NCBI GenBank assembly: GCA_028532915.1 | Contig: JAQQAI010000034.1 | Span: 1 to 64,000, forward strand | Source of the DNA: Sphaerochaetaceae bacterium | GTDB taxonomy: Bacteria; Spirochaetota; Spirochaetia; Sphaerochaetales; Sphaerochaetaceae | DNA: 64,000 bases | Reading direction: 5' to 3' | Shown here: positions 13,703 to 51,890 of the stretch, piece by piece | How positions within the stretch are numbered: position 1 is the first letter of the stretch | Layout of the letters: each line of letters starts with the position of its first letter | The notes under the pieces: generated by a model | Seen by the model: only the letters and a program-made list of their open reading frames with translations | What the model was told of the DNA's origin: nothing | The model's database searches: none | Translations under genes and position numbers: made by a program

Positions 13703-14929
13703 CTACATGAGGAACTGCAGAGCAGGACGCAGGCCGTCGACAAGTTCTTCCATATACGGAACAACTGCAAGCAGAACACCGGCCGCGACTGCCGAACCGA
13801 GAACACCTGCTACATTCGGGCCCATGGCGTGCATGAGAAGGAAGTTCTGAGGATTGCTCTCCTGTCCGACTTTGCTCGATACCCTCGCTGCCATCGGCAC
13901 AGCTGAAACACCGGCAGATCCGATAAGAGGATTCACTGGATGTTTCGGATCGATCTTGTTCATCAGCTTGGCGATGAGAACACCCGTAGCTGTTCCCAGA
14001 CCGAATGCGATGAGTCCAAGAGAGAGGATTCCGAGAGTGTTGAGGTTCAAGAACTTCTCAGCTTCCATCTTCGAGCCGACCGAAAGTCCCAGGAAGATGG
14101 TGACGATGTTCATCAGAGAATTCTGCATCGTATCACTGAGTCTGTTGACGACTCCGCATTCTTTTGCAAGATTCCCGAACATCAGAGCCCCTACGAGGGG
14201 AGTCGCCGACGGAAGGAGAATAGCACAGACTGTAAGAACCGAGATAGGAAAGAGGATCTTCTCCAGTTTCGAAACCGGTCTGAGCTGTTCCATCTTGATC
14301 AGCCGTTCTTTCTTAGTTGTCAGAGCTCTCATGATAGGCGGCTGGATGATAGGGACTAGAGCCATGTATGAGTAAGCGGCAACGGCGATGGATCCCAGAA
14401 GGTCGGGAGCCAGACGGCTTGTCACATAGATTGCAGTAGGTCCGTCAGCACCTCCGATGATTCCGATCGATGCTGCGGCATGAAGATCGAAGTTGATTCC
14501 GGGGATGAATGAGAGACCAAGGGCTCCCAGAAGAGCCGCGAAGATACCGACCTGAGCAGCCGCACCGAGAAGAAGTGTCTTCGGGTTGGCGATCAGCGGG
14601 CCGAAATCGGTCATTGCTCCTACACCCATGAAAATGAGAATCGGGAACAGGCCTGTTTCGATCCCCATATCGTAGAGCAGCTTGATGAAACCTTCACCGC
14701 CGTGAGTGCTCGTGGGGTCGATCCCTGCGATATAGGCGAACGGGATGTTCGCCAGAATACAACCGAAGCCGATGGTAACCAGCAGCAGCGGTTCAAAACC
14801 TTTTGCAATGGCAAGGTAGAGAAGCAGGAATCCTACGAGGATCATTACAACGTTTCCCCAGCCTCCGGCAGCAAGGAATCCCATGAGCCCTGTTGTCTGC
14901 CATAATTGTTGAAATGCTTGTCCAATCAT
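13703..14929 (-). CDS. oadB: Sodium-pumping oxaloacetate decarboxylase, beta subunit
   Basis: A 408-residue polytopic membrane protein of the OadB/MmdB/GcdB family. It has the family's conserved segments [49 protein letters not shown] (the Asp within GGADGPT is the key sodium site) and [10 protein letters not shown]. The beta subunit removes CO2 from carboxybiotin on the alpha subunit and moves sodium ions outward. It follows oadG and oadA on the same strand, with GGGAG before the ATG, and is closed by a strong terminator. Confidence 0.93.
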
Positions 14930-14941
14930 GTATCAGCTCCC

Positions 14942-17044
14942 TTACTCGATTACAGCGAGAACATCGTCTGCCATCAATTGATCACCTTGCTTAACGAGGA
15001 TTTTCTTGATGACACCGCTGACCGGTGCAAAAATCTCATTTTCCATTTTCATTGCTTCCATTACCAGAATCAGACCGTTCTGCTCGACTGTGTCGCCTTC
15101 TTTGGCATCGATTCTGAGCACCAGACCGGGCATCGGAGCTTTCACTTCCGTTGCGCCTGCTGCGGGCGCTGCACTCGGTGCAGCACTGGGTGTGGCAGCC
15201 GGGGCTGAAGAAGCGGGTGCGGCTGCGGCAGAGGAGATCACAAGAAGGACCTCGTCAGCAGATTTCTGATCACCCTGTTTCACTTTGATTTCGCTTACTG
15301 TACCGCTGACGGGAGCGAAGATCTCATTTTCCATCTTCATAGCTTCCATCACCATCAGAACATCATTTTCTTTGACTGTATCGCCGACAGAGACATTTGT
15401 TCTGAGAATCAGGCCGGGCATCGGAGCTTTCACTTCGACCGCAGCTGTTGCTGCTGCAGGTGCCGGTGCAGCTGCTGCAGGTGATGCAATCCCGTCTGTG
15501 ACGGAAATATCGTATGAAACACCGTTGACGATCGCCTTGTCACCTTTGAGCTGTACAGCATAGGATGAGTTGTTGACCTTGACAGTGTAGTCTGTCTTGT
15601 TGGATGAAGCGGCTGCAGCTTTCGGAGCTTCTTTGGCGACAGCACTTTTGAGTCTGACACCGTTGACCTTTGCCTTGCCTGTGAGGAAAAGGATACCTTT
15701 TTCTTTACAGCTTGCCGCAATGAAGATGTTTTCTTCGGTGATCTCGAGGTTCTCTTTCTTGAGCATCTCGATTGCTGCATCTCTTCCTTTCTTGGGATCT
15801 TTGTCGTTGAGATCGACAGCGACCTCTTTGGTTGTAGGAAGTTTGAGCTGTTCGCTGGAGATCTTGATGACTTCAGCATCGGGTTCGACCGGGGTCTTTC
15901 CGAAATATCCGAGGACCATCTTTCCGTATCCTTCTGCTATCTTCTTCCAGGGTCCGAACATCACGTTGTTGAATGCCTGCTGGAAATAGAACTGGCTAAC
16001 AGGAGTAACACTTGTTGCGTATCCGCCTTTCGCCACAACTTCAGCCATAGCATGAGTGATTTCAGGGAAGCGGTCCATCAGACCGTTGTCACGAAGCATC
16101 TGAGTGTTTGCTGTAAGAGCTCCGCCGGGAAGCGGGCTGAAGGGGATGATCGGGTTGACTGTTGTAGCTTCAGGTGGAAGGAAGTAGTCGCTCATGCACT
16201 CTTCGAAGACTCTTTCGGCTTCCATGACTTTCTCGATATCGATATCGAGAGAGTACTCGGTTCCTCTGAGAGCATGCCACATGGTGATGACATCGGGCTG
16301 GCAGGTTCCGCCCGATACGGGAACCAGTGAAAGGTCGACCTGGGAGGCACCGGCTTCGATGGCACTCATGTACTGCTGGATCGATACCCCTGCTGTCTCG
16401 TGAGAGTGGAATACGATGTTCATATCCTTTCCGAGAAGCTTTCTGGCTCTCTTGATTGTTTCATAGACGATCTTTGGTGTTGATGTTCCCGAAGCATCTT
16501 TGAAACAGACTGAATCGTAAGGGATCCCCGCATCGAGAATTCCTTTCAGGGTCTTCTCATAGAAATCGGGATCGTGAGCTCCTGTCGCCCCTGGGGGGAG
16601 AGCCATCATGGTCACACACACTTCGTGACGTAAACCTGCTTCATGGATAGCCTTTCCGCTGTCGATGAGGTTGTTCACATCATTGAGTGCATCAAAGTTT
16701 CTGATAGTCGAGATACCGTGTTTCTTGAACAGCTCGGCGTGCAGTTTGATGATGTCTCTCGGCTGAGAATCGAGACCTACGACATTGATACCTCTGGCAA
16801 GGGTCTGCAGGTTTGCATCGGGTCCGGCAACTTTTCTGAACTCGTCCATCATGGCGAATGCATCTTCATTTGTATAGAAATACAATGACTGGAAACGGGC
16901 TCCGCCGCCGGCTTCAAAATGGTTGATACCTGCTTCTTTTGCTGCTGCTACAGCCGGCATGAAATCTTTTGTAAATACTCTAGCTCCGTAGACAGACTGG
17001 AATCCGTCACGGAAAGCTGTACACATGAAATTGACCTTTTTCAT
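14942..17044 (-). CDS. oadA: Oxaloacetate decarboxylase alpha subunit with two biotinyl domains
   Basis: The 700-residue protein has an N-terminal carboxyltransferase TIM barrel (about residues 1-470) with FRDGFQ (D13), KDASG (K182) and HSHET (H213, H215). A short linker then leads to two biotinyl domains, residues 537-605 and 633-700, each with the biotin site EAMKMEN (K570 and K666), separated by an Ala/Pro/Ser linker. Most OadA proteins carry one biotinyl domain, and most read RDAHQS where this one reads RDGFQS. It transfers CO2 from oxaloacetate to biotin, for decarboxylation by OadB. The operon is G-A-B. A ribosome binding site AAGGAG precedes the ATG. Confidence 0.92.
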   Translation of the reverse strand: MKKVNFMCTAFRDGFQSVYGARVFTKDFMPAVAAAKEAGINHFEAGGGARFQSLYFYTNEDAFAMMDEFRKVAGPDANLQTLARGINVVGLDSQPRDIIKLHAELFKKHGISTIRNFDALNDVNNLIDSGKAIHEAGLRHEVCVTMMALPPGATGAHDPDFYEKTLKGILDAGIPYDSVCFKDASGTSTPKIVYETIKRARKLLGKDMNIVFHSHETAGVSIQQYMSAIEAGASQVDLSLVPVSGGTCQPDVITMWHALRGTEYSLDIDIEKVMEAERVFEECMSDYFLPPEATTVNPIIPFSPLPGGALTANTQMLRDNGLMDRFPEITHAMAEVVAKGGYATSVTPVSQFYFQQAFNNVMFGPWKKIAEGYGKMVLGYFGKTPVEPDAEVIKISSEQLKLPTTKEVAVDLNDKDPKKGRDAAIEMLKKENLEITEENIFIAASCKEKGILFLTGKAKVNGVRLKSAVAKEAPKAAAASSNKTDYTVKVNNSSYAVQLKGDKAIVNGVSYDISVTDGIASPAAAAPAPAAATAAVEVKAPMPGLILRTNVSVGDTVKENDVLMVMEAMKMENEIFAPVSGTVSEIKVKQGDQKSADEVLLVISSAAAAPASSAPAATPSAAPSAAPAAGATEVKAPMPGLVLRIDAKEGDTVEQNGLILVMEAMKMENEIFAPVSGVIKKILVKQGDQLMADDVLAVIE
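14945..15436 (-). repeat. Tandem duplication of the biotinyl domain in oadA
   Basis: Two copies of a roughly 205-bp coding segment (15230-15436 and 14945-15148) encode closely similar biotinyl domains, both with APMPGL, EAMKMENEIFAPVSG and VKQGDQ. The DNA of the copies is clearly alike but not identical, especially around the biotin site. An 81-nt Ala/Pro-rich linker separates them. Confidence 0.9.
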
Positions 17045-17066: not shown

Positions 17067-17339
17067 TTAACGTTTTGAAAGTGAAAGGGCTGCTGCTATC
17101 GCGGCTGCAACCTCTGCACCCTTGCCTTCAGTACTCGAAGCGACTGGGGAAGAAGCGCGTTTCACAGGGGCTGTAGAAACTTTTTGGGGAAAGTATCTAT
17201 TGACGATGAATGACAGTAATTTTGTGGTGAATACAAGCAATGTCAGGAAAAGGAAAACTACACCCATTCCTATCACTAACAGTATTAACCCATTGTTCAC
17301 CTGCTGCAACAGCAGTTCTTTAGGTAATTGGTTTAGCAT
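17067..17339 (-). CDS. oadG: Oxaloacetate decarboxylase gamma subunit
   Basis: A 90-residue protein with one membrane helix (about residues 18-44) and a flexible C-terminal tail rich in Ala, Ser and Lys. This matches OadG, the small subunit that holds the alpha and beta subunits together and, in studied members, binds zinc at its C-terminus; the His-rich end of those members is not obvious here. The assignment leans on its position 22 nt upstream of oadA. AAGGAG precedes the ATG, and a clear promoter lies 50-80 nt upstream. Confidence 0.8.
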   Translation of the reverse strand: MLNQLPKELLLQQVNNGLILLVIGMGVVFLFLTLLVFTTKLLSFIVNRYFPQKVSTAPVKRASSPVASSTEGKGAEVAAAIAAALSLSKR

Positions 17340-50899: not shown

Positions 50900-51890
50900 T
50901 GAGAGCGGCGACATCGTCAGCCATCGCATGGAGTGAAGGTTCAAGCTTCTTCTCACCTTCGGTGACCAGACTGTGGTAGACAGCCTCGGGCGTGTAGGGG
51001 GTCGAAGGAAGAGCCTCCTGAAGGAACCGGATGAATTCGAGCGAGAGTGTATCGCTGGAGATCTCCACATCAGTGATCACTCCTTTGATGACTTCAAGAT
51101 CGAGAGTGATTCTTCCCCAGTCGAACCTGCTGCTGATAGGGTGGGAGAAATGAGGCGATGATCCGTAGAGCCAGGACCAGCTGCTGTAATGTTCATACGT
51201 CTCATGCAGGTCTGGATGACTTGAGAGAAATTCGGTCTGCAGATCGACCACTTCCACTTCATCCTCGTAGATGCTGTAGAACTGCTCTATGATTGCACTG
51301 CACAGATTCTCATGGGTGATCTCTCCGTTGAGGGCTTTGAGATTCGTCACTCTGGAAGAGACCGAACGGATCCCCTTTGACTGAAGTTTCTCCTTGTCGG
51401 GAGTAAGATAGAGAGGAAGAGCCGTCATGTCTGCATCGATGAGAAGCGTGCCGTGATGGAATGCTTTTTTACTGTTCTTTTTGAATGCACTGCCCGAGAA
51501 CTTTTTCCCGTCTGCAATGAGGTCGTTCCTCCCGGAAGTCTCACCTTTGATATCGAACCTCTTGAGCGCATCCAATATGATACTGAAATTTCTCTGGATA
51601 TCGTAATCGTCGATCGGGGACATGAAGGTGAAGTTCGTATTGCCCAGATCATGGTAGACCGCTCCTCCTCCGCTTTGACGTCTTGCAAGAGTGACCGAAT
51701 CGCGTTCCATTGCCGGAAGGTCGCATTCGATCCACGGATTCTGAAAACGTCCGATGACGACACACGGTTTGTTTCTCCAGAGAAACAGAATATGCTGCCT
51801 GTCACTCTGCTGTTTGAACAACCAATCTTCCGTGGCAAGATTGAACCACGGATTATGATGCTCTGCCGTATAGACCTTGATTTTCTTCAT
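50880..51890 (-). CDS. lplA: Lipoate-protein ligase A
   Basis: The 336-residue protein activates lipoate with ATP and attaches it to lipoyl domains. The family motif RRQSGGGAVYHDLGN and the later GRNDLIADGKKFSGSA with the conserved catalytic Lys region are present, followed by the accessory C-terminal domain. It would lipoylate the E2 partner of the E1 encoded at 35.5-37.4 kb or a glycine-cleavage H protein, none of which is in the window. GGGAG lies upstream of the ATG. Confidence 0.92.
   Translation of the reverse strand: MKKIKVYTAEHHNPWFNLATEDWLFKQQSDRQHILFLWRNKPCVVIGRFQNPWIECDLPAMERDSVTLARRQSGGGAVYHDLGNTNFTFMSPIDDYDIQRNFSIILDALKRFDIKGETSGRNDLIADGKKFSGSAFKKNSKKAFHHGTLLIDADMTALPLYLTPDKEKLQSKGIRSVSSRVTNLKALNGEITHENLCSAIIEQFYSIYEDEVEVVDLQTEFLSSHPDLHETYEHYSSWSWLYGSSPHFSHPISSRFDWGRITLDLEVIKGVITDVEISSDTLSLEFIRFLQEALPSTPYTPEAVYHSLVTEGEKKLEPSLHAMADDVAALITKECS

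Follow-up and report, generated by a model that had tools for sequence, protein, structure and literature searches.

The window analysed here, a stretch of 64,000 nucleotides from the genome of a Sphaerochaetaceae bacterium, contains a minus-strand operon with the gene order OadG-OadA-OadB, and all operon features described below are located on that strand. The first gene encodes an OadG-like gamma subunit of 90 amino acids (17067..17339; PF04277, 4.6e-19), which also passed the TIGR01195 model with 53.6 bits against a cut-off of 36.05. It is followed by the gene for an OadA-type alpha subunit of 700 amino acids (14942..17044), consisting of a carboxyltransferase, an association segment and two biotinyl domains, and by the gene for an OadB-type membrane beta subunit of 408 amino acids (13703..14929; PF03977, 2.8e-159). 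The OadB-type and OadG-type partners, together with a PYC_OADA domain (PF02436, 2.5e-31) and Asp, Lys and His-x-His residues that align with those of 5S and PycB, place the alpha subunit with the oxaloacetate decarboxylases (OAD). It does not qualify as subunit B of a pyruvate carboxylase, since its operon partners are OadB and OadG and not a biotin carboxylase. The one biotin carboxylase identified in the stretches read from the same genome is located on another contig (C79), beside another EAMKM protein. Elsewhere in the window, a match to the lipoate/biotin ligase domain PF03099 was recorded (29 bits; 51429-51719, minus strand).

The set of alpha, beta and gamma genes, the OadA-type carboxyltransferase, the PYC_OADA domain and the biotinyl domain are shared with OadABG, the Na+-translocating oxaloacetate decarboxylase of Klebsiella, Salmonella and Vibrio. 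However, the window OadA has two biotinyl arms instead of one, and it scored 373.1 bits with the oadA equivalog model TIGR01108, for which the cut-off is 756.5; the protein was therefore filed as OAD-like. Oxaloacetate is the most likely candidate for the substrate. The residues Asp13, Lys182, His213 and His215 are invariant in the OadA sets compared. Lys182 belongs to an FKD motif (16499..16501) and aligns with the Lys of 5S and PycB that we take to be located in the active site, and His213-x-His215 (16400..16408) aligns with the HxH of the same proteins, presumably the metal ligands. Asp13 is part of an RDGFQ motif (residues 12-16; 16997..17011) and aligns with the Asp of RDAHQ and RDGHQ. 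Whereas the 5S-type relatives have RDAHQ and WGGAT or WGGATF, the window OadA has RDGFQ and GGGARF. The preliminary description considered RDGFQ to be unusual, but the motif is a trait of the subfamily: it is present in 117 of the 125 ORFs examined (of the other eight, five lack a motif of this kind within the part searched and three have another one), and it also occurs in the OadA of Desulfoluna. Since the PycB chain 5ks8 has RDGHQ, the odd letter of the motif is the Phe in place of His.

Both biotinyl domains match PF00364, the first with 71.1 bits (15236..15436) and the second with 70.5 bits (14948..15148), and each contains the Lys of an xMKM motif, here EAMKMEN, as the predicted biotin acceptor (Lys570 at 15335..15337 and Lys666 at 15047..15049). 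They are joined by an Ala/Pro/Ser linker of 24 amino acids, 75% of which are Ala or Pro (15161..15232). In a predicted structure of the whole chain, both arms consist largely of beta structure, and the linker that separates them is of low confidence (pLDDT below 50 at residues 607-629); the carboxyltransferase part of this model is poor (mean pLDDT 65, from an alignment of 12 rows), and the two arms and the segment preceding them are readable. At the protein level the arms share 65% identity, and the underlying DNA repeat is 71% identical over 206 nucleotides at a spacing of 288. The tandem domains, their acceptor residues, the linker and the likeness of the copies thus agree with what had been described from the DNA letters, and the sequence supports two biotinylatable arms on this OadA. 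Could the second arm have been created by an error in sequencing or assembly? We see virtually no chance of this and have discarded the explanation, because the copies are 71% identical in nucleotides and the two-arm architecture is shared by the other nine members of the window's clade. The synonymous divergence between the arms (pS of 0.63) and their protein identity likewise point to an old duplication rather than an artefact of assembly.

Arm number and arm history within the family

A carboxyltransferase search recovered OadA from 130 of the 139 genomes of the GTDB family to which the window belongs. Among the 117 proteins that were read, 59 have two arms, 33 one, 14 three and four none, and seven are cut by contig ends; the fragmentary matches L124-L127 and L131 are outside this census. 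Many of the genomes are drafts of many contigs, and the three-arm counts are lower bounds because arms as similar as 94-99% may be merged into one during assembly. Three of the armless proteins come from the genus g22. The fourth (L097, genome G082) is a frameshifted ORF, which is included in the census but was not used for counting arm changes or for the association tests. In this genome (L097 and L332), the OadA frame is interrupted within the linker that precedes the biotinyl domain, by either an assembly error or a real break, and the domain is read in another frame.

The two-arm OadA is not unique; it is common in its own family. The preliminary description had proposed a survey of spirochaete OadAs for domain number, with commonness of the double domain as a finding that would speak against its claim, and with 59 two-arm and 14 three-arm proteins among 117 the double domain is indeed common. 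The accompanying statement that a single domain is present in most OadA proteins is correct for the proteins of the RDGFQ subfamily examined outside the family (24 of 29), but does not apply inside it.

The history of the arms can be read from comparisons within and between species. In the window's clade, arms at the same position are 77.7% (arm 1) and 77.0% (arm 2) identical across species, as compared to 64.6% for the two arms of one protein, which indicates that both arms were already present, and have been retained, from before the separation of these species, the doubling being older than the ten-genome clade. The median pN/pS ratios, estimated from 45 pairs each, were 0.190 for arm 1, 0.178 for arm 2 and 0.115 for the carboxyltransferase, indicating that purifying selection is equal on the two arms. 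We conclude that the doubled arm is a real and conserved feature and is probably functional.

One alternative hypothesis is that the repetitive Ala/Pro linkers recombine, so that domains are gained and lost in a near-neutral manner and the number of arms drifts without much consequence. In agreement with this, a quick tree of 146 carboxyltransferases, in which many forks are weak, requires a minimum of 24 changes in arm number, or 18 when the family alone is considered, and one-, two- and three-arm forms all persist. Near-identical arm pairs also occur: each of the 14 three-arm proteins has first and second arms that share 94-99% identity and must have been copied recently, and a third arm with 71-81% identity to these two. 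However, none of the 160 arms of the complete two- and three-arm family proteins (59x2 + 14x3) has lost the Lys motif, selection acts equally on both arms and two arms have been retained in all 10 genomes of the window's clade. We consider drift possible, but doubtful as the main explanation.

The segment before the arms

Between the carboxyltransferase and the first arm of the window OadA lies a segment with four predicted strands (residues ~485-519; 15488..15592), which we propose may serve as a tether to OadG or OadB. Its absence from some relatives is informative. In the OadA-like proteins of g22 (L323 5518-7209, plus strand, in G136; L324 7431-9140, minus strand, in G138; L325 7714-9420, minus strand, in G137), the last domain has no Lys and the segment before it has been lost, leaving 14-18 residues between the carboxyltransferase and the domain, as compared to 60-86 in the 106 complete family proteins that carry the Lys. 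No OadB was found beside these genes in the 14-15 kb read. In the g22 genomes, MmdA, OadB and a one-arm carrier are encoded together in another operon, where OadG was seen in two of the three genomes. Outside the family, L307 (G483) has also lost both the biotin Lys and the segment, and its OadB is encoded on a different contig, where MmdA and a carrier are neighbours. According to a passage in PMC7145394, an OadA peptide of about 30 amino acids is bound by the small membrane subunit. Taken together with this peptide, the joint loss of Lys and segment suggests a role of the segment in anchoring the alpha subunit to the pump, and carboxyltransferases of the armless type could use a carrier in trans.

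The arrangement in g22 may represent such a use of a carrier in trans, or a transcarboxylase-like set-up. A transcarboxylase-like gene content was also observed in one other spirochaete family (f24), where one-arm OadAs of the RDGFQ clade are encoded beside MmdA with OadB absent from the stretch read (L297, L316 and L317).

Tandem carriers in other lineages

The 29 OadA proteins read outside the family comprise 28 from spirochaetes, identified in a search of 392 genomes of the phylum, and one from Desulfoluna limicola, identified in the tandem pattern scan described below. Apart from the 24 one-arm proteins, three have two arms (G387, G165 and Desulfoluna) and two have none by the motif used. 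One of the latter, L314, has EVMKLE, and its biotinyl domain is probably intact as judged from this variant. A further two-arm OadA outside the family was found in G509. Two other spirochaete OadAs (L319 and L320) have ESMKEE at the biotinyl motif where others have EAMKME.

Public genomes were scanned with a DNA pattern of two MKM motifs at a set spacing, which sees arm spacings of about 94-104 residues and specifies nothing about the neighbouring genes. The scan returned at least 118 stretches with at least 100 in-frame ORFs, of which at least 83 have two or more arms. Among the matches listed, OadB was present within the stretch read (at most 8 kb) for 78 of the 83 tandem-arm ORFs, and a biotin carboxylase for none of them. 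Those lacking OadB, again among the matches listed, are L173, L202, L226, L262 and L267; the stretch for L267 is 718 bases long, and L226 and L262 are fused tandem OadAs with no OadB in the stretch read. The 83 ORFs, as far as they are among the matches listed, derive from the Bacteroidota (41), Spirochaetota (16, some of them located on contigs already counted in the family census), Cloacimonadota (15), Bacillota (9), Pseudomonadota (1) and Thermodesulfobacteriota (1), and they take the form of fused OadAs, carriers beside MmdA or carriers beside a separate carboxyltransferase.

As a control, 30 spirochaete loci were collected at EAMKM sites, yielding 25 one-arm loci, two two-arm loci and three without an ORF with the motif. 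OadB was found at seven of the one-arm loci, biotin carboxylase at 10 and neither at eight, with the limitation that these loci span at most about 3 kb and are shorter than the tandem stretches, which disfavours the detection of neighbours; both two-arm loci have OadB. A Fisher test of 78/0 for the tandem ORFs among the matches listed against 7/10 for the one-arm control gave a value of 1.9e-9, with no correction for kinship among the species. The 17 one-motif ORFs among the matches listed of the pattern scan itself had OadB in nine cases and biotin carboxylase in two, so that carriers that can be found with this pattern are biased towards pumps anyway. Hence, the association of tandem arms with OadB depends on the control chosen.

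The stand-alone tandem carriers, located beside MmdA-OadB in the Bacteroidota and Cloacimonadota and beside carboxyltransferase-OadB in the Bacillota, resemble the window protein in having two arms near OadB, but differ from it in being separate subunits of about 240 amino acids. In a tree of the arms based on 72 columns, the sequences group by lineage (12 label changes, the minimum possible being 11), and the deeper order is weak. This grouping fits separate duplications, but does not prove them; we think that the tandem arms were probably duplicated separately in different lineages. Doubled carriers thus recur near the genes for Na+-pump decarboxylases in several phyla.

Possible functions of additional arms

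We hypothesize that the alpha subunit is part of a biotin-dependent, Na+-pumping decarboxylase (OadG-OadA-OadB), in which the TIM-barrel carboxyltransferase would move a carboxyl group from a substrate of the 2-oxo-acid type onto biotin, and OadB would decarboxylate the carboxybiotin and export Na+. The similar biotinyl domains, each with an acceptor Lys of its own and hung serially on Ala/Pro linkers, might be interchangeable, raising the carrier concentration and spanning a greater distance from the soluble active site to the membrane subunit. Our preferred reading, which we consider about as likely to be right as wrong, is that the tandem arms are redundant and that, as with the lipoyl repeats of PDH E2, the extra arm would extend the reach from the carboxyltransferase to OadB or make the carrier denser there. 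It is plausible that the second arm adds transfer capacity or reach. The sequences themselves show the domain number, the retention of Lys, the purifying selection on both arms, the operon and the repeated occurrence near OadB; the low-confidence linker and the predicted beta structure of both arms also speak for this reading.

Known systems provide partial parallels. In PDH E2, a variable number of similar swinging-arm domains are placed serially on flexible linkers, according to a section of PMC8421416, although the domains carry lipoyl and not biotin, the complex is a dehydrogenase and the protein has no whole-length homology with OadA. The glutaconyl-CoA decarboxylase (Gcd) of Clostridium symbiosum has two biotin carriers with Ala/Pro linkers per Na+-pump complex, as stated in a portion of PMC7145394, but these are separate subunits (GcdC1 and GcdC2) and the carboxyltransferase is another one. 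In excerpts from the open-licence literature, we found no dedicated study of tandem biotinyl OadAs, and the earlier printed remark on a two-domain OadA is one sentence, on two biotin attachment domains in Gbem_1454 of Geobacter bemidjiensis (PMC2996986). This gene adjoins gcdA, and homologues of both pump subunits were not found there, as reported in that excerpt. Gbem_1454 is similar to the window OadA in having two domains, but without the pump genes that in the window are represented by OadB and OadG.

Two biotin domains without pump genes in Gbem_1454 argue against redundant arms that serve a pump, as do the fused tandem OadAs without OadB in L226 and L262. So do 16 one-arm genomes of the g16 clade with two OadB genes, which manage with one arm and indicate that a second is not essential. 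Close relatives with one, two or three arms and the doubled carriers beside Na+-pump genes in several groups make the doubling look useful, as a variation on a known machine. Biotin carriers are usually taken as single-arm parts, and here one to three arms are found in one enzyme within one family. Such natural variants could be used to test whether reach, carrier concentration or the choice of partner sets the rate of a swinging-arm enzyme.

We also considered the possibility that the arms are specialised, one serving the OadB of the operon and the other a different partner, either a solo second OadB or an orphan MmdA-like carboxyltransferase. Candidates for both are present in the window's genome: a second OadB (L385 1432-2595, plus strand; G000:C2:20447-21520) which has neither a carrier nor a carboxyltransferase closer than 1.5 kb, and an MmdA-like gene on contig C52, for which no carrier was seen in the 15 kb read. 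Two OadB genes are present in most family genomes, and their frequency increases with arm number, from 17 of the 33 family genomes with one arm to 48 of the 59 with two and all 14 with three (raw Fisher test, p=0.00055). However, the tree provides just three well-supported independent pairs, for which a sign test is not significant, and only one OadB accompanies the two-arm OadA of 11 family genomes and of three lineages outside the family (G387, G165 and G509). The presence of MmdA-like genes, identified in 26 of the 139 family genomes, bears no relation to arm number: they occur in 5 of the 33 genomes with one arm and in 12 of the 73 with more than one (Fisher test, p=1.0). Moreover, the near-copy arms of the three-arm proteins favour interchangeability. 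Neither partner is thus generally supported, contrary to the earlier suggestion that one arm could serve a different one, and we regard specialised arms as unlikely.

A related hypothesis, to which we assign a slightly lower probability still, is that arm number is tuned, with a two- or three-arm alpha subunit feeding both the OadB of the operon and a solo OadB that lacks a nearby carrier; if so, the number of arms per alpha subunit would follow the number of pumps in the cell.

The mutase of the methylmalonyl-CoA pathway was not found in the window's genome. The orphan MmdA-like carboxyltransferase (L340 7319-8866, minus strand; G000:C52) adjoins genes resembling those for an aldehyde dehydrogenase and a transaldolase, and neighbours that resemble these by their first residues recur in genome G124 (L344).
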